From Actinocorallia populi (GTDB lineage: Bacteria; Actinomycetota; Actinomycetes; Streptosporangiales; Streptosporangiaceae): 64,000 bases of DNA. The notes below the pieces were generated by a model, which was given only the letters and a program-made list of their open reading frames with translations, was not told the DNA's origin and did no database searches. The translations under genes and the position numbers were made by a program. Position 1 is the first letter of the stretch, and every line of letters starts with the position of its first letter. The stretch spans positions 248,001 through 312,000 of the forward strand of contig NZ_PVZV01000001.1 of NCBI RefSeq assembly GCF_002995495.1. Direction: 5' to 3'. Positions 1 to 12,340 of this stretch are shown here, in pieces.

Positions 1-49
1 AGCCGAAGCCCTTTTCCGCGTTGAACCACTTCACGGTGCCAGTAGCCAT
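1..49 (-). CDS. Cold-shock protein, CspA family (5' end only)
   Basis: The first sixteen codons on the minus strand read MATGTVKWFNAEKGFG, the hallmark start of CspA-type RNA-chaperone proteins, including the KWFN part of the nucleic-acid-binding surface. The ATG ends at 49 and a GAGGAG ribosome site lies about seven bases ahead of it. The rest of this roughly 67-residue protein is outside the window. The family binds single-stranded RNA and DNA and melts mRNA structure, often constitutively in actinomycetes. Confidence 0.9.
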   Translation of the reverse strand, partial: MATGTVKWFNAEKGFG

Positions 50-395: not shown

Positions 396-1163
396 GTGGA
401 CGGGAACGATCGGGAGTACGCGCGGAGCTGGCTGGCGGCCGACGGCGTCGTAGAGATCAGTGCCGGCGTTTGGACCAGCGCCGAGGAGCCGGATGCACGG
501 CTGACGGCGTGCGAAGTGGCGCACGAATGGGCGCAGGCGGCCCTGAACGACTCCGAACTCGAACCGGTCGAGCGGCTTCGGCTCGGTTTCGGGATGCTGG
601 ACCTGCTCGACGAGTTCTGGGTGACCGCCGAGATCGGCTTCATGGTGAAGGCGGAGAAGAACCCGCAGGTGAACGAGGCGCTCTGGGACGCCTACCGCCG
701 CAGACTCGAGGCGCCGCAGATCGCCGAGAACGTCTCCTACTCCCTGTGGGTGGACTGGTTCGAGAACCACGCCACCGTGGAGACCGCCTTCGCCGAGGTG
801 CTGGGCGCCGACATCGGGGAACTCCAGCGCGGTGGCCGGCTCGACGAGATCACCCGCGATCCGCTGATCCGGAGGGTCCGCCGGGTGCTGGAGGTCTCCG
901 GCCCCGTCCCCTGGACGATCAAGCTCCCCGTCCACCAGGCCGTGGCGGGGTTCCCTGAACTGCACCCCGCGCTGTTCAGGGGCCTCCTCCTCAGCTACCA
1001 CGACGTCTACGGCGACCTCGAACCCCGTGCCGCCCTCGCCCTTCTGGAGCGGCTCGAACTTCCGCCCGGAACCGAGCACCTCGCCACGCTGAGCGCGGTC
1101 CTCAGGGAAGGCCACACCAACCACTACCGCTCCCCGGGGGCCTGGGACCACGCAAAGCAGTGA
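396..1163 (+). CDS. Hypothetical protein, 255 aa
   Basis: GTG start at 396; strong G/C third-position bias supports coding. The soluble, acidic, helix-rich product shows no signal peptide, membrane segment or catalytic motif I recognise. Tryptophan- and acid-rich stretches such as YSLWVDWFENHATVETAF recall small actinomycete proteins of unknown function. It ends 88 bases before the HPF1-like gene in the same orientation, so the two could share a transcript, but nothing else links them. Function unknown. Confidence 0.6.
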   Translation: MDGNDREYARSWLAADGVVEISAGVWTSAEEPDARLTACEVAHEWAQAALNDSELEPVERLRLGFGMLDLLDEFWVTAEIGFMVKAEKNPQVNEALWDAYRRRLEAPQIAENVSYSLWVDWFENHATVETAFAEVLGADIGELQRGGRLDEITRDPLIRRVRRVLEVSGPVPWTIKLPVHQAVAGFPELHPALFRGLLLSYHDVYGDLEPRAALALLERLELPPGTEHLATLSAVLREGHTNHYRSPGAWDHAKQ

Positions 1164-1251: not shown

Positions 1252-2196
1252 ATGGATGACGACACACGAAGGCAAGCAGCTCTCGAAACGATGTGGGAGC
1301 GTTTCCCCGCCGTCTCGGAAAGGGTCCAGCAGGTTTACGGACTGCGGCTCCCCCGCCACCTCGCCGTGTTCTGCGCCTTGTGGAAGAGCGCCGATTCCGC
1401 AGAACGGCAGGCGCTCGGCCACCTGGGCGTGGGCCCGTTCGGCGTCTCCGACTACTTCGGCGACGACGGGCTGCGGCTGGTGGGCCGCGACGGGCTGGAC
1501 GAGCGGCTCCACGGCCGCTTCCGGTGCGACCCCGCCGAATTCGTGACGGTGATGACGGGCGGCTCCGACGGGCTGCATTACGGCCTTTGGTACGACGACC
1601 CGGCCGAACTCCCCTCGTTCGTCGCACACAACTACGCCCGCGATTCCGCGGAGACCTGGACCAACCATTTCCCGGCCCTGATCATGGAGCTGCGCGACAT
1701 CGTCTCCATGGCGATGTCGGACTACGGCGACAGCGGCGAGGAGGCGGAAATACTCCAGCCTCTCGTCGCCGCCCTGGAATGGTTCGCCCCTGCGGAGTAC
1801 CAGGCCCTGGAGACCGACGGAAAACCGCGTTGGGCATCGGCGGCGCGGCCTTCCGGCTTCCCCTCGATCTTCCCCGCCCTGCCGCCGGACAGCGGCGATC
1901 CGCACTCGTCGCAGTCGAGCAGCCGCCTGTCGGCCTTCCGGAACGGCACTCCCGAGGCCGCCGAATGGATCACGCGGGCCGAGCAGGAGCTGGCGGCCGG
2001 CAGACCCGCCCTCGCCCTCGCCGTGGGCGGCGAACTGCACTGGATGGACCGCGACGACCACCGGCAGCAGTCCCGGCGCCTTCTCGTCGACGCCTACCGG
2101 CTGCTCGGCCGCGACGCCCTGGCCGACCTCGTCGAAGTGCACACCGCGCACCGCGACCTGCGTTCCGTCGACGTGCTCGTCAAACCCGACCACTGA
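1252..2196 (+). CDS. HPF1-like (DUF2228, 'ADP-ribosylation family') protein
   Basis: The 314-residue product resembles animal HPF1, the accessory factor that completes the PARP1/2 active site for serine ADP-ribosylation. Three blocks match from memory of the family: YGLRLPRHLAVFCALW near residue 28, the core CDPAEFVTVMTGG followed by HYGLWYDDPAELPSFVA near residues 90-125, and the C-terminal LLVDAYRLLGRDALADLVEV near 280. The loop SDYGDSGEEAE (about residues 158-168) falls where human HPF1 has its catalytic acidic loop, but I cannot say whether the catalytic Glu itself is kept. No PARP-like transferase is visible nearby. Bacterial members of PF10228 exist and are essentially uncharacterised. 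ATG start chosen. Confidence 0.7.
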   Translation: MDDDTRRQAALETMWERFPAVSERVQQVYGLRLPRHLAVFCALWKSADSAERQALGHLGVGPFGVSDYFGDDGLRLVGRDGLDERLHGRFRCDPAEFVTVMTGGSDGLHYGLWYDDPAELPSFVAHNYARDSAETWTNHFPALIMELRDIVSMAMSDYGDSGEEAEILQPLVAALEWFAPAEYQALETDGKPRWASAARPSGFPSIFPALPPDSGDPHSSQSSSRLSAFRNGTPEAAEWITRAEQELAAGRPALALAVGGELHWMDRDDHRQQSRRLLVDAYRLLGRDALADLVEVHTAHRDLRSVDVLVKPDH

Positions 2197-2270: not shown

Positions 2271-3404
2271 TCAGGGAGAAGGCCCGGACGGCTCCGTGAC
2301 CTGCGCTGCTCGCTCCTCGGCCTGTCCGGGGAGGAAGAGCCGGACGGTGAGGCCGCCTTGGGGGGCGGCGACAAGGCGGAGGGTGCCGTGGTGGGCGGCG
2401 GTGATGCGGGAGGTGAGAGCGAGACCGAGACCGTGGCCGCGGCGGGTGGGATCAGGGTCGGCGGTACGGCCTCGGCCGCGGAGGAAGGGTTCCAGGTAGG
2501 TCTCGACGGCGTCGGCGGGAAGGCGCGGGCCGGTGTTGGTGACGGTGAGGAGCGCGCGGCCGCCTTCGGCGGAGTCGGGGCCGGTGGTGATGGTGAGGGA
2601 GCCGCCGGAGGAGAGGTTGTGGCGGACGGCGTTCTCGAGGAGGTTGCCGATGGCCCGCCGCAGGAGGACGTCACTGGCCTGGACGGTGACGGGCCGCAGG
2701 TCGGCGGAGACGGCGATGCCGCGTTGGGCGGCTTCGGCGCCGCACGCCTCCAGTGCCTGCGCGGCGACGGCGGCCAGATCGACCGGGGCGGTGGTCAAGG
2801 GGGTGCTGTCGAGCGAGGACAGCTGGAGAAGCGCGTCGATGATCTCTATGCCGCGCTGGTTGGTCTCGTACAGCCTGGTCAGGAGGCGGTCGTCCGGACC
2901 GTCGGGGTCTGCGAGGGCGACCTGCAGCATGGTCCGGGTGATGGCCAGCGGGGTGCGCAGCTCGTGGGAGGCGTTGGCGGCGAAGCGCCGCTGCTCGTCG
3001 AACGAGCGCTGCAGGCGGTCGAGCATGGTGTCGAAGGTGTCGGCGAGATCGGTGAACTCGTCTTTGCGGCCCGTCAGCCGGATGCGGTGGTCGAGGGAGC
3101 CGTTCGCGGCGCGCACGGCCGCCCGGTTGATGTGCTGGAGCGGCCGCAGGACCCATCCGGCCAGCAGCCAGCCGCCGGCCAACCCGATCACCGCCAGTAC
3201 CGCCAGCGCGGCGCCCGACGCCGTCACCAGGGTGTCGAGGATCTCCTCACGCGAAGGAGCCGTCCTCGTGTCCCGGGGGTTCGCCGCGGTGAGGGGGTAG
3301 TTGGGCACGTACCGCATCCCCAGATAGAGGATCGCCATGGTGACCGCCCCCGCGCCCACGAGGAAGCACGCGTAGCCCAGGGTGAGGCGCAACCGCGCGG
3401 TCAC
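2271..3404 (-). CDS. Sensor histidine kinase, VanS/OmpR-partner type
   Basis: Membrane sensor of a two-component system, 377 aa from the GTG at 3404, which overlaps the regulator's stop codon by four bases (GTGA). Two membrane helices at about residues 8-30 and 62-85 frame a very short outer loop of about 30 residues. A HAMP linker (86-140), the H-box ASHELRTPLA (phosphorylated His about 147), the N-box GNLLENAVRHN (about 253-263) and G-boxes HGLGLAL follow in order. The short outer loop suggests sensing at or in the membrane, as in VanS-like kinases. Operon with the OmpR-type regulator; the divergent D,D-carboxypeptidase gene is the likely target. Confidence 0.92.
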   Translation of the reverse strand: MTARLRLTLGYACFLVGAGAVTMAILYLGMRYVPNYPLTAANPRDTRTAPSREEILDTLVTASGAALAVLAVIGLAGGWLLAGWVLRPLQHINRAAVRAANGSLDHRIRLTGRKDEFTDLADTFDTMLDRLQRSFDEQRRFAANASHELRTPLAITRTMLQVALADPDGPDDRLLTRLYETNQRGIEIIDALLQLSSLDSTPLTTAPVDLAAVAAQALEACGAEAAQRGIAVSADLRPVTVQASDVLLRRAIGNLLENAVRHNLSSGGSLTITTGPDSAEGGRALLTVTNTGPRLPADAVETYLEPFLRGRGRTADPDPTRRGHGLGLALTSRITAAHHGTLRLVAAPQGGLTVRLFLPGQAEERAAQVTEPSGPSP

Positions 3405-4075
3405 GGCCGGGGGCTCCCGTCGTCCATCCGGTAGCCGACGCCCGGCACCGTGGCGATGGCGGAGGGCTCGCCCAGCCGGGCCCGCAGCGACGAGATCGTG
3501 ATGCGAATGGCGTTGGTGAACGGGTCGGCGTTCTCGTCCCATGCCCGTTCCAGCAGTTCCTCCGCACTGACGACGCCGCCGCGCGCGGTCATCAGGATCT
3601 CCAGGACGGCGAACTGCTTGCGGGCGAGTGCCACGTAGCGTCCCGCCCGGTAGACCTCGCGGCGGAACGGGTCGAGCCTGATCCCGGCGTACTCGACGAC
3701 CGGCGGCGTCCCCCGCGCCGGGCGGCGGGCCAGGGCACGCAGCCTCACCACGAGTTCGGGCAGGTCGAACGGCTTGGTCAGGTAGTCGTCGGCGCCCAGC
3801 CGGAAGCCGTCGAGCTTGTCGGTGAGGCCGGCCGCCGCGGTGAGCATGAGCACCCGGCAGCCCAGGCCCCGCTCGACCACTCTCCGGCACACCTCGTCCC
3901 CGTGCACGCCGGGAAGGTCGCGGTCGAGCACCACGACGTCGTAATCGTGGACGCCGAGCCGCTCCAGTGCCGCCTCGCCGTCCGGGGCGAGGTCGGCCGC
4001 GATCGCCTCCAGCCGCAGGCCGTTCTGGATCGCCTCGGCGAGATAGACCTCGTCCTCGACGACGAGCACACGCAT
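3401..4075 (-). CDS. OmpR/VanR-family response regulator
   Basis: 224-residue DNA-binding response regulator. The receiver domain shows acidic E7/D8, phospho-acceptor D51 in VVVLDRDLPG, T79 and K101 of LTKPF. A winged-helix Trans_reg_C domain fills residues about 125-220 (FTNAIRITISSLRARLG recognition region). It is the first gene of the pair with the kinase and is divergent from the VanY-like gene; the 118-base space between them holds an inverted repeat that could be its binding site. Length and order are normal for the family. Confidence 0.92.
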   Translation of the reverse strand: MRVLVVEDEVYLAEAIQNGLRLEAIAADLAPDGEAALERLGVHDYDVVVLDRDLPGVHGDEVCRRVVERGLGCRVLMLTAAAGLTDKLDGFRLGADDYLTKPFDLPELVVRLRALARRPARGTPPVVEYAGIRLDPFRREVYRAGRYVALARKQFAVLEILMTARGGVVSAEELLERAWDENADPFTNAIRITISSLRARLGEPSAIATVPGVGYRMDDGSPRP

Positions 4076-4141
4076 CGGACCCCGCTTCTCCCTCGACCAT
4101 CACCGGCCGTGTCACCTTATGCAAGCACGTCTATCGAAAAG

Positions 4142-4159
4142 GTATGCGGAAAGGCATAC
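4142..4159. promoter_or_regulatory. Inverted repeat between the two-component operon and vanY-like gene
   Basis: GTATGC (4142-4147), six bases, GCATAC (4154-4159): a perfect 6+6 inverted repeat about 35 bases ahead of the carboxypeptidase start and about 67 bases ahead of the regulator start. It is a candidate operator for the response regulator or the promoter region shared by both transcription units. The role is inferred from position only. Confidence 0.4.
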
Positions 4160-4193
4160 GGCCTGGTGACACGGGCTGCGGTGCGGTGGGCGC

Positions 4194-4769
4194 ATGCGAT
4201 CTCGTCTTCTTCTGCCCCTGATCGGAGCCGCGAGCGCCCTGGTCCTGAGCGGCTGCGGCCGTCCGCCGGCACCGGACGTCCGGCCCGGCTCCGCGGCCCC
4301 CGGTTCGGCGACGGCCCCGGCGCCCCGAGGCGACGGGCGCATCGCCGACGACCGCGGCCTGAGCCCCTTCGAGACCGACCACGTCGCCCTCACCGAACTG
4401 GACCCGCGGCTGCTGCGAGCCGTCCGCCAGGCGGCGGCGCGGGCCAAGACCGACGGCGTGGACCTGTTCATCACCTCCGGCTGGCGCAGCGCCGACTACC
4501 AACGCCGGCTGTTCGACCAGGCGGTCACCCAGTACGGCAGCCGGGAAGAGGCGAAACGCTACGTCCTTCCACCCGAGAAATCGGCCCATGTCCGGGGGGA
4601 GGCCGTGGACATCGGCCCGACCGACGCCGCCGACTGGCTCGGCCGCCGGGGCGCCGCGTTCGGACTCTGCCAGGTCTACGCCAACGAGATGTGGCACTTC
4701 GAACTCGCGACGCGCCCTGGAGGCGCCTGCCCTCCGCAGCTCCCCGACGCCACCGCGGCCGAGTACTGA
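4194..4769 (+). CDS. VanY-type D-alanyl-D-alanine carboxypeptidase lipoprotein (peptidase M15B)
   Basis: Zinc D,D-carboxypeptidase predicted to trim the terminal D-Ala of peptidoglycan pentapeptide stems outside the membrane. The 191-residue product begins with a lipoprotein signal ending in the lipobox LSGC (Cys21). The M15 motif SAHVRGEAVD gives zinc ligands His132 and Asp139; EMWHFE gives catalytic Glu165 and the third ligand His168. A proline/alanine-rich tether spans about 22-45. It lies divergent from a VanR/VanS-like pair, the same pairing seen in glycopeptide-response loci, but no vanH-A-X genes are here, so wall remodelling under stress is as likely as resistance. Confidence 0.88.
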   Translation: MRSRLLLPLIGAASALVLSGCGRPPAPDVRPGSAAPGSATAPAPRGDGRIADDRGLSPFETDHVALTELDPRLLRAVRQAAARAKTDGVDLFITSGWRSADYQRRLFDQAVTQYGSREEAKRYVLPPEKSAHVRGEAVDIGPTDAADWLGRRGAAFGLCQVYANEMWHFELATRPGGACPPQLPDATAAEY

Positions 4770-8007: not shown

Positions 8008-8694
8008 GTGGAGAGTCAAGGGGTGCGCCGCACACCGGTGCAGCAGCGCAGCCGCGAACGCGTCGAGCGCATCCTCGACGCCTGCGCCGAACTCCTCGAC
8101 GAGGTCGGCTCCGACGGCCTGACCATCACCGAGGTCGCCCGCAGGGCCGGGGTCCCCACCGGCACCGTGTACCAGTTCTTCGAGGGCAGGCTCGGCCTGC
8201 TGCGCCAGCTGGCCCTGCGCCACCTGGACATCCTGATCGGGCGGCTGCGCGCCCGCGCCGCGGAGGAACCCGGGCTGACCTGGCCGCGCGCGGGGCGGAT
8301 CGTCATCGAGGAGACGGTGCAGATGCGGCGGCTGATCCCCGGCTTCACCGTCGTCGACTTCGGCGAGGCCCGCCCCGGCGGCGAGAAGTACCTGCCCGAG
8401 GGCACCACCGAGGCGGGCGGCGACATCCTCGCCGAACGGCTCTACCGGTTCGCGGTCGAGGAGGCCGGGCTGCCCCCGCTGACCGACCCCTACCGCGTGA
8501 CCAGCCTCGCGATCCAGGCCGCCGGCGCGGGCCTGGAGCTGGCCTTCCGCAACTCCCGCGAGGGCGACACCGCCCTGATCGAGCAGACCGGGCACCTGCT
8601 CGCCGCCTACTTCGCCGACGCCGCCCGGCGTTCGAGCGCCGACCTGCCGGGTCCCGGTGGCCCGGCCCGCACAGACCAGGACGGTGGCCAGTGA
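8008..8694 (+). CDS. TetR-family transcriptional regulator
   Basis: N-terminal helix-turn-helix (RERVERILDACAELL ... GLTITEVARRAGVPTGTVYQFF) and a variable ligand-binding C-terminal domain, about 228 residues. Two starts compete: ATG at 7969 with GAGGAGG only four bases ahead, which lies inside the palindromic operator, and GTG at 8008, which gives a family-like N-terminus and fits a leaderless transcript. I chose 8008. It overlaps the downstream DUF2804 gene by four bases (GTGA). Probably represses the divergent MFS-GH2 unit and itself. Confidence 0.88.
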   Translation: MESQGVRRTPVQQRSRERVERILDACAELLDEVGSDGLTITEVARRAGVPTGTVYQFFEGRLGLLRQLALRHLDILIGRLRARAAEEPGLTWPRAGRIVIEETVQMRRLIPGFTVVDFGEARPGGEKYLPEGTTEAGGDILAERLYRFAVEEAGLPPLTDPYRVTSLAIQAAGAGLELAFRNSREGDTALIEQTGHLLAAYFADAARRSSADLPGPGGPARTDQDGGQ

Positions 8695-9752
8695 CCACGC
8701 ACGAACCAGAGATCATCGCGGCCACCGACCTGTGCGGCCCCGACGGCCGGCTGAACCCCGCCGCCGCGGGCTGGTCGCGCACCCCGCTGCACCGCGCCAA
8801 CCTGAGCGGCTGGGGCCGGACGAAGCGCTGGGAGTACTGGTGCGTCACCTCCCCGACCCACCTGGTCGCGGTGACCGTCAGCGACCTCGACTTCATGGCC
8901 CTCAACTCGTTCTACGTCCTGGAGTACGCGCGGGACGGGCGGCCCGCCGTCGAGTTCGACCGCACCGCGCTGGTCCCCTTCGGCCGCGGGGTCTCCCTGC
9001 CGGAGGGCATCGCCGGAAGCGGCGGCCCGTACGGCGGCGACGTGGTGGTCGGCCCGGAGAAGCCCGTCGGAGGCCAGGTGCGGGTCTCGCTCACCCACGA
9101 ACAGGGCGGCACCCGCCTGCGGGCGCGCGCGGTGTCCCCCGACAGGCGCCCCGTCGAGCTGGACGTCTTCGCCGCGCTGCCGGAAGGCCACGAGACCCTC
9201 AGCGTCGTGGTCCCCTGGGACGAGAAGCGCTTCCAGTTCACCTCCAAGCACACCGCGCGCCCGGCCTCCGGCAGCCTGCGCGTCGGCGACCGCGTCCTGC
9301 CCTTCGCCGAGGACTCCTGGGCGACCCTCGACCACGGCCGAGGCCGCTGGCCCCGCAGCATCACCTGGAACTGGGGCGCCGCCTCCGGCACCACGGACGG
9401 CCGCACCGTGGGCCTGCAGTTCGGCGGCAAATGGACCGACGGCACGGGCGCCACGGAGAACGCCCTGTGCGTCGACGGCCGCCTCGACAAGATCGGCTCC
9501 CCGATCGACTGGCACTACGACCCCGCCGACTTCATGCGCCCCTGGACCCTGCGCACCGCGGACTCCGACCAGGTCGACCTGACCTTCACCCCGTTCCACG
9601 ACCGCCGCACCCGCACCGAGGCCGTGCTCATGGCGAACAACGCCGACCAGTGCTTCGGCCACTACTCCGGTCGCATCAGGACCGACTCCGGCGAGACCAT
9701 CCGGATCGAAGACCTCCTCGGCTGGGCCGAGGAGGTCCACATGCGCTGGTGA
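8691..9752 (+). CDS. DUF2804 family protein
   Basis: 353 residues, usual length for DUF2804 (PF10974). Recognisable blocks include TKRWEYWCVTSP (about 44-55), SITWNWGAASG (about 223-233) and KWTDGTGATENA (about 244-255). The fold is expected to be all-beta. The function of the family is unknown; a lipid- or carotenoid-like ligand-binding role has been suggested for related all-beta proteins, which is inference only. Translationally coupled to TetR by a GTGA overlap, so it is probably under the same control. Confidence 0.75.
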   Translation: MTTHEPEIIAATDLCGPDGRLNPAAAGWSRTPLHRANLSGWGRTKRWEYWCVTSPTHLVAVTVSDLDFMALNSFYVLEYARDGRPAVEFDRTALVPFGRGVSLPEGIAGSGGPYGGDVVVGPEKPVGGQVRVSLTHEQGGTRLRARAVSPDRRPVELDVFAALPEGHETLSVVVPWDEKRFQFTSKHTARPASGSLRVGDRVLPFAEDSWATLDHGRGRWPRSITWNWGAASGTTDGRTVGLQFGGKWTDGTGATENALCVDGRLDKIGSPIDWHYDPADFMRPWTLRTADSDQVDLTFTPFHDRRTRTEAVLMANNADQCFGHYSGRIRTDSGETIRIEDLLGWAEEVHMRW

Positions 9753-11329: not shown

Positions 11330-11434
11330 ATGAACCGGCGGAGGCGGTCTTCACCGATCTTGGTTGCCCCACCATGAACGATCTTGAACCCATTCACCGG
11401 CAAACCGTCCCACCCGTCCGTGATACTCACCCGC

Positions 11435-12340
11435 ATGGTCACGGATCCACGCGAACTCATCAGATTCCATCTCGCCCTGGGGCAGGACGGCCACGGTGCC
11501 CTCCTGAGCCGCTGCAAGGACCACCTGGGAGATTCCACCGACGTCACGCCGATCGTCGCCGAGGAGTTCGCGTCCTACCTGGACGACCAGCGCACCTGGC
11601 CCGACGTCCTCGACTCCGACCGGCTGCTGCGCGCGTTCGGTGACCTGAACACCGCCGGCATCGTCGCCCGCACCGATTTCACCTGCTGCCTGGCCTGCGG
11701 AACGGACGAGATCCACGGCGAGGTCCCCGACGGCCTGGAACGCCGCGGCTACGTCTTCGCCCACCGCCAGGACATGGAGAGCGCCGCCGCCGGTCTCGGC
11801 TGCCACCTGGCCTTCGGCACCTTCGGCGCCGCCACGACCCGCGAGATCGGCGAGGAGGTCGTCACGGCGCTCCGCACCCACGGCCTCGCCCCCGACTGGA
11901 ACGGCGAACCCGCCGTCCGCATTCACGTCCCCCTGACCTGGCGCCGCCGCCGCTTCGGCCACCTCGCCGCCTGGCCGGGCGGGCCCGGTCCCGAGGACAC
12001 GGCCCCGCACCCCCTGCACGTCTTCTACAGCGGTTACCAGAACCGCGTGGAGAACGCCGAAGTCCCCATGTCACTTGCCGAAGCCAGGAACGTCCTCCTG
12101 GAACTGCCCCCCTACGAAGGCAACTTCGCCGGGTTCGTAGGCCGCTCCGAAGGCTGCGTGCAGGTCGCGTGGACGCGGGACGGAGACCTCTCGCTGGACT
12201 CCCCCGACCCCGAGAACCGCTGCTTCCGCCGCCGCAACGTGACCATGGCCGAGGCCGAGAAGATGATCACGATCCTCGCCGACGAAGACCGCGTCGCCAT
12301 CGACGAACTGGGCGGCCTGACCATCGAGCCCTGGTCCTGA
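11435..12340 (+). CDS. DUF6891-like protein
   Basis: About 301 residues from ATG 11435 (MVTDPRELIRFHLALG); an upstream in-frame ATG at 11384 is less likely. Blocks DFTCCLACGTDEI (paired cysteines near residue 85), YVFAHRQDMESA and LHVFYSGY match my memory of the uncharacterised actinobacterial DUF6891 family. Soluble; no signal peptide. The C-terminal 90 residues look like a separate small domain (YEGNFAGFVGRSEGCVQVAW). Function unknown. Confidence 0.6.
   Translation: MVTDPRELIRFHLALGQDGHGALLSRCKDHLGDSTDVTPIVAEEFASYLDDQRTWPDVLDSDRLLRAFGDLNTAGIVARTDFTCCLACGTDEIHGEVPDGLERRGYVFAHRQDMESAAAGLGCHLAFGTFGAATTREIGEEVVTALRTHGLAPDWNGEPAVRIHVPLTWRRRRFGHLAAWPGGPGPEDTAPHPLHVFYSGYQNRVENAEVPMSLAEARNVLLELPPYEGNFAGFVGRSEGCVQVAWTRDGDLSLDSPDPENRCFRRRNVTMAEAEKMITILADEDRVAIDELGGLTIEPWS

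Follow-up and report, generated by a model that had tools for sequence, protein, structure and literature searches.

Animal HPF1 helps the DNA-repair enzyme PARP1 and, as a PARP1/2 cofactor, directs ADP-ribosylation to serine. HPF1 (C4orf27; PF10228, the former DUF2228) has been described as a cofactor dedicated to PARP1/2 in eukaryotes; according to a 2016 paper it is conserved in metazoans and in a small number of protozoa, and nearly all organisms that have PARP1 also have HPF1 (PMC4858568). The human protein contacts PARP through F268, F280, D283, C285, and K307, and its catalytic acid, E284, is positioned by R239 together with Y238 and D286 (PMC7884425); Y238 and R239 are said to occur in all HPF1 orthologues (PMC4858568). 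Bacterial PARPs are known, with a sporadic distribution (Perina et al. 2014, PMC4245714). A second family of relevance here is the SUKH superfamily (SMI1/KNR4, YobK, Syd), whose members form the widest class of immunity proteins (PMC3482391). A literature search, with incomplete journal coverage, turned up neither a paper dealing with HPF1 homologues in bacteria nor one linking HPF1 to SUKH proteins.

The gene described here lies in a window of 64,000 nucleotides (NZ_PVZV01000001.1, positions 248,001 to 312,000) from the soil-type bacterium Actinocorallia populi; the features discussed are collected in Table 1. The ORF has exactly the coordinates given in the first-pass annotation, with an ATG start, a TGA stop, and 314 codons. 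Its codon-position GC values (0.73/0.48/0.87) are of the coding type and dN/dS between pairs of its relatives is 0.11-0.42; together, these identify a real gene under purifying selection. PF10228 is the sole Pfam family found for the protein (45.2 bits over a cut-off of 27.1, E 1.3e-11), and a single-sequence search of the PDB gave HPF1 chains alone at E < 1e-8 (E 6e-12), each in two blocks. Twelve relatives from the genome collection, sampled from actinomycetes (Actinoplanes, Dactylosporangium, Virgisporangium, Catenuloplanes, and Streptomyces), Myxococcota, and one Anaerolineae, are 33-61% identical, most of them 46-61%, and share invariant motifs; a profile built from the bacterial sequences spans the whole length of solved HPF1 structures (E 7.3e-21). 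An AlphaFold2 model (mean pLDDT 93.1, pTM 0.91) matched only HPF1 entries at E <= 0.001 in Foldseek (E 1.1e-11), and VIA-align placed it on HPF1 in its PARP1 complex (6m3i) with Z 26.2 and an rmsd of 3.2 over 288 residues. The protein is an HPF1 homologue over its whole length. The first-pass annotation, which had proposed a full-length bacterial HPF1-like protein with core and C-terminal blocks, was correct in this, and the unrelated fold that it had named as a refutation did not appear when the structure was predicted.

Table 1. Coordinates of the HPF1-like gene, its parts, and other genes considered; positions are those of the window except for the UDG-ART fusion.
Feature	Position	Strand	Remarks
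255-aa protein	396-1163	+	no match in Pfam, NCBIfam, or PADLOC
HPF1-fold protein gene	1252..2196	+	stand-alone, 314 aa, PF10228 match
N-terminal alpha/beta domain, residues 1-162	1252..1737	+	HPF1 N-domain best, SUKH-type next
Top-conserved block R-x3-D-P-x-E-F-x-T ... GSDGLHYGLWYDDP, residues 89-117	1516..1602	+	has residues in common with human and Nematostella HPF1
C-terminal TPR-like helical domain, about residues 219-304	1906..2163	+	structural matches; columns common to animal HPF1
Hairpin AEQELAAGRP, residues 243-252	1978..2007	+	counterpart of HPF1 ANDECDYG carrying D283/E284
UDG-ART fusion	G000:C1:240852-242591 (= L045:4853-6592)	+	uracil-DNA-glycosylase-like N-part, PF01129 C-part

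The genome search for PARP-like enzymes suggested at first pass was run, and the PARP catalytic domain (PF00644) was not detected in the A. populi genome, which is scored 100% complete. Of the 22 genomes with the HPF1-like gene that were searched (A. populi itself, 15 further carriers, and six more from myxobacteria), 21 gave no PARP as judged by this one Pfam model. Enhygromyxa alone gave a PF00644 match, and the search is thus able to find a PARP; the protein (L048:7650-9461, + strand) also has a weak WGR match. Together with the HPF1-like protein of the same genome (L010), it may form a genuine HPF1-PARP pair in a bacterium, of which Enhygromyxa, the only carrier genome with both genes, would be a natural case. 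Bacterial WGR-PARPs of this type are a possible class of enzymatic partner, although absent from the A. populi genome and from 21/22 carriers. Because a full-length HPF1 homologue occurs where no PARP catalytic domain can be detected, the question of what it partners is a real one. It could be answered by supposing that the protein is a genuine PARP cofactor whose PARP was missed in a draft genome, as the joint presence of a WGR-PARP and an HPF1-like gene in Enhygromyxa might suggest, but the completeness of the A. populi genome with no PF00644 candidate, the 21 of 22 carriers lacking PARP, and the loss of contact residues described below largely refute this explanation, which we consider very improbable.

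The catalytic hairpin was compared next to its human counterpart, which reads ANDECDYG-MGLELG where the bacterial sequence is AEQELAAGRPALALAVG, three residues longer. HMM alignment to vertebrate HPF1, MAFFT, and hhalign each pair E284 with E246, a column that holds E in 24 of 34 bacterial rows and Q in five; an ungapped phmmer alignment instead pairs E284 with A249, three residues away, where an acid is present in 3/34 rows. In neither register are D283, C285, D286, F280, or K307 conserved across the 34 rows, and the D283-equivalent column is acidic in at most four of them. The positions of F280, D283, C285, and K307 in the 314-aa protein are occupied by R/Q, Q/A, L/G, and Q, respectively (two alignments); F268 was left out of the scoring, the alignment around it being uncertain. 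The columns aligned to Y238 and R239 are mixtures of S/L/A/G and S/A/G and are likewise not conserved. Near them is a GDPR motif, with R in 19/34 rows and H in the A. populi protein. One myxobacterial copy, L024, has two Asp at the alternative positions, and its relatives do not. With the contact and positioning residues gone in either register, no more than one functional residue of HPF1 survives. The acidic loop that the first-pass annotation had wanted checked may therefore have kept one Glu, E246, which could still act like E284, but D283 and the flanking contact and positioning residues are gone. The equipment with which HPF1 completes PARP (F280, D283, C285, D286, K307, Y238, and R239) is not conserved in the bacterial protein. 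Since contact residues, Y238/R239, and co-occurrence with PARP all failed, the protein should not be filed as a PARP-cofactor HPF1. It resembles HPF1 in its full-length homology, two-domain fold, and 32 conserved columns; it differs in the lack of a genomic PARP, of the contact residues, and of Y238/R239, in the longer hairpin, and in being mostly stand-alone.

E246 might instead be lent to a different ADP-ribosyltransferase (ART), such as the UDG-ART fusion, KptA/Tpt1, or an undetected ART. The first-pass annotation had seen no ADP-ribosyltransferase nearby, and this holds within the examined 1-12 kb of the window; however, the genome encodes an R-S-E (arginine-type) ART, the one in the UDG-ART fusion (PF01129, E 6.9e-12), ~6.7 kb upstream and shortly beyond the window's edge, and KptA is also present. 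The profile alignments that put E246 at E284, with E in 24/34 rows, fit such a role. Against it, the UDG-ART is not found in the neighborhoods of the other carriers examined, and an HPF1-like gene is missing from the four plasmid-collection records with UDG-ART, one of them a Nonomuraea replicon of 11.85 Mb; KptA occurs in 19/22 carriers and in 3/14 control genomes, and was judged too widespread and unspecific to be informative; and Y238, R239, and D286, which position E284, are not conserved. Lending E246 to another ART is accordingly an unlikely function. The UDG-ART has relatives in Nonomuraea, Embleya, and Streptomyces that are 74-81% identical. The usual first motif of uracil-DNA glycosylases is GQDPYH; here it is GQNPYP, and the UDG part is possibly inactive. 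WGR proteins were also considered as partners. Among the sampled genomes from the family of the Actinoplanes carrier, they occur in 20/28 strong carriers versus 77/173 other genomes (Fisher p 0.013), the split having been made by hand from two tables with carriers defined as matches at E < 1e-30; genome size and kinship confound this association and there is no positional linkage, and it was set aside as a weak lead only.

Modelled alone (pLDDT 91), the N-domain again found HPF1 first (Z 12.9), followed by YobK (Z 6.4), Knr4 (5.2), and Syd (4.6), all three below the safe level and all of the SUKH class. The predicted SUKH-type resemblance of the N-domain is weak, the scores being modest, although the pattern is consistent. 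The protein differs from SUKH proteins in this weak score, in having no Pfam SUKH match, in its extra TPR-like domain, and in that no toxin partner gene was found. The C-domain matches TPR proteins (BamD and others, Z 8-9) in the helical hairpins of residues 219-304 and in the A/G/A spacing A243-G250-A255; unlike TPR proteins, it has one to two hairpins only, and the likeness may reflect a common arrangement. A SUKH-kind toxin-immunity protein with an added helical domain would account for YobK, Knr4, and Syd ranking right behind HPF1, and would belong to the widest class of immunity proteins. It is nevertheless a doubtful identification: no toxin or tandem immunity gene was recognized beside the copies in flanks of up to 6 kb, no neighbor is common to different lineages, PADLOC gave no match, and across phyla the sequences are too uniform (46-61% mostly, with invariant motifs) for fast-evolving immunity proteins.

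At 32 columns, human and Nematostella HPF1 have the same residue as at least 85% of the bacterial rows. In the C-domain, these columns include G259, L262, L277, Y282, R287, A291, H297, and R301; those in the N-domain include R89, D93, E96, F97, T99, G103, H109, G111, D115, P117, and N127. The residues shared by bacteria and animals are densest in the N-domain (R89, D93, E96, H109, and D115; the human residues in these columns are R107, D111, E114, H128, and D134), and conservation within the bacterial family peaks in block 85-117 (81% mean). The 32 columns include neither Glu284 nor any residue with a demonstrated PARP1 contact. This points to a conserved N-domain site that spans bacteria to humans and has a testable function, but several of the conserved polar residues may be structural rather than site-forming. 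The N-domain could be a small-molecule or nucleotide sensor, or an enzyme, acting through R89/D93/E96/H109/D115, with the animal link to PARP secondary. A single block, present in animals too, holds more invariant polar residues than a plain scaffold needs; structural searches, however, returned no known enzyme fold, and we know of no ligand reported at this site in HPF1 structures. We rate a sensor or enzyme as rather improbable.

Because there is no PARP and most PARP-binding residues are lost, the protein probably does something older. The best explanation, to which we assign a probability of about 0.55, is that this HPF1-fold protein binds a partner independently of PARP. Its SUKH-like alpha/beta N-domain and TPR-like helical C-domain would work without PARP in A. 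populi, most likely as a soluble adaptor or regulator that binds other proteins. In the N-domain, the conserved site (R89, D93, E96, H109, D115) is a candidate grip on a partner or ligand, and the TPR-like groove (H263, W264, H297, R301) would be a second; these are the parts that selection has preserved. On this view, the supply of a catalytic Glu to PARP1/2 would be a later, eukaryotic use of the fold. The homology and fold, the missing PARP and contact residues, the placement of conserved sites elsewhere, and the lack of an operon partner are observed, whereas the role as an adaptor, the location of its binding sites, and the evolutionary order are inferred. The adaptor reading also draws on domain fusions, since myxobacterial copies are joined to other domains as adaptors often are: L024:1504-3066 (- strand) is fused to a KOW domain, and L046:4126-6081 to ankyrin repeats and a UvrD-type Tudor domain. 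Two further myxobacterial copies, L010 and L022, and the Anaerolineae copy L009 have an additional N-terminal part with no Pfam match. The N-terminus of L046 has a SWIM-like Cys/His pattern, also Pfam-unmatched.

The complete fold occurs here in bacteria that have no PARP, and this breaks the coupling of HPF1 to PARP. It is possible, although we put it forward only tentatively, that HPF1 descends from an older protein of the SUKH-plus-TPR type, which bacteria would continue to employ in the absence of PARP, was not a PARP helper by origin, and retains the N-domain site in humans; if this is true, human HPF1 is implied to have a PARP-independent activity. In a tree of the family, one long branch sets off the three animal rows; this tree gives no root, and hence no direction of transfer between bacteria and eukaryotes.

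The HPF1-like gene is rare, patchy, and chromosomal. Strong profile matches were present in 28/201 genomes from the family of the Actinoplanes carrier and the gene in 7/237 Myxococcota; the Pfam model, which is less sensitive than the profile, found 1/396 Actinomycetota (the A. populi genome) and 1/251 Chloroflexota (an already known carrier). Of two other species in the genus, one carries the gene. Weak profile matches L018, L019, and L029 look like chance and were dropped. The HPF1-like frame of L017 (G446:C246) is interrupted by two in-frame TGA codons, leaving open frames 802-2019 and 2026-2487, and is either a disrupted gene or the product of misassembly. Plasmid, phage, and viral collections contained no HPF1-like copy and a BFVD fold search gave nothing at E <= 0.001; a mobile or viral origin was rejected on these grounds.

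An all-against-all comparison of flanking ORFs (flanks up to 6 kb) revealed no neighbor conserved between lineages, and both the 396-1163 gene and the nearby two-component system are therefore incidental. The former, rightly described at first pass as an unknown protein, is not beside any other HPF1-like copy and was discarded as a partner. Window 2271-4769 holds the two-component system (an OmpR-type response regulator and a histidine kinase, minus strand) and, divergent from it, a gene for a VanY D-Ala-D-Ala carboxypeptidase (4194-4769, + strand), a layout that recalls the control of cell-wall stress. At window positions 1-49 (- strand), the start of a cold-shock protein gene (MATGTVKWFNAEKGFG) runs off the left edge, and DUF2804 and DUF6891 genes, both of unknown function, are found at 8691-9752 and 11384-12340, respectively, both on the + strand.
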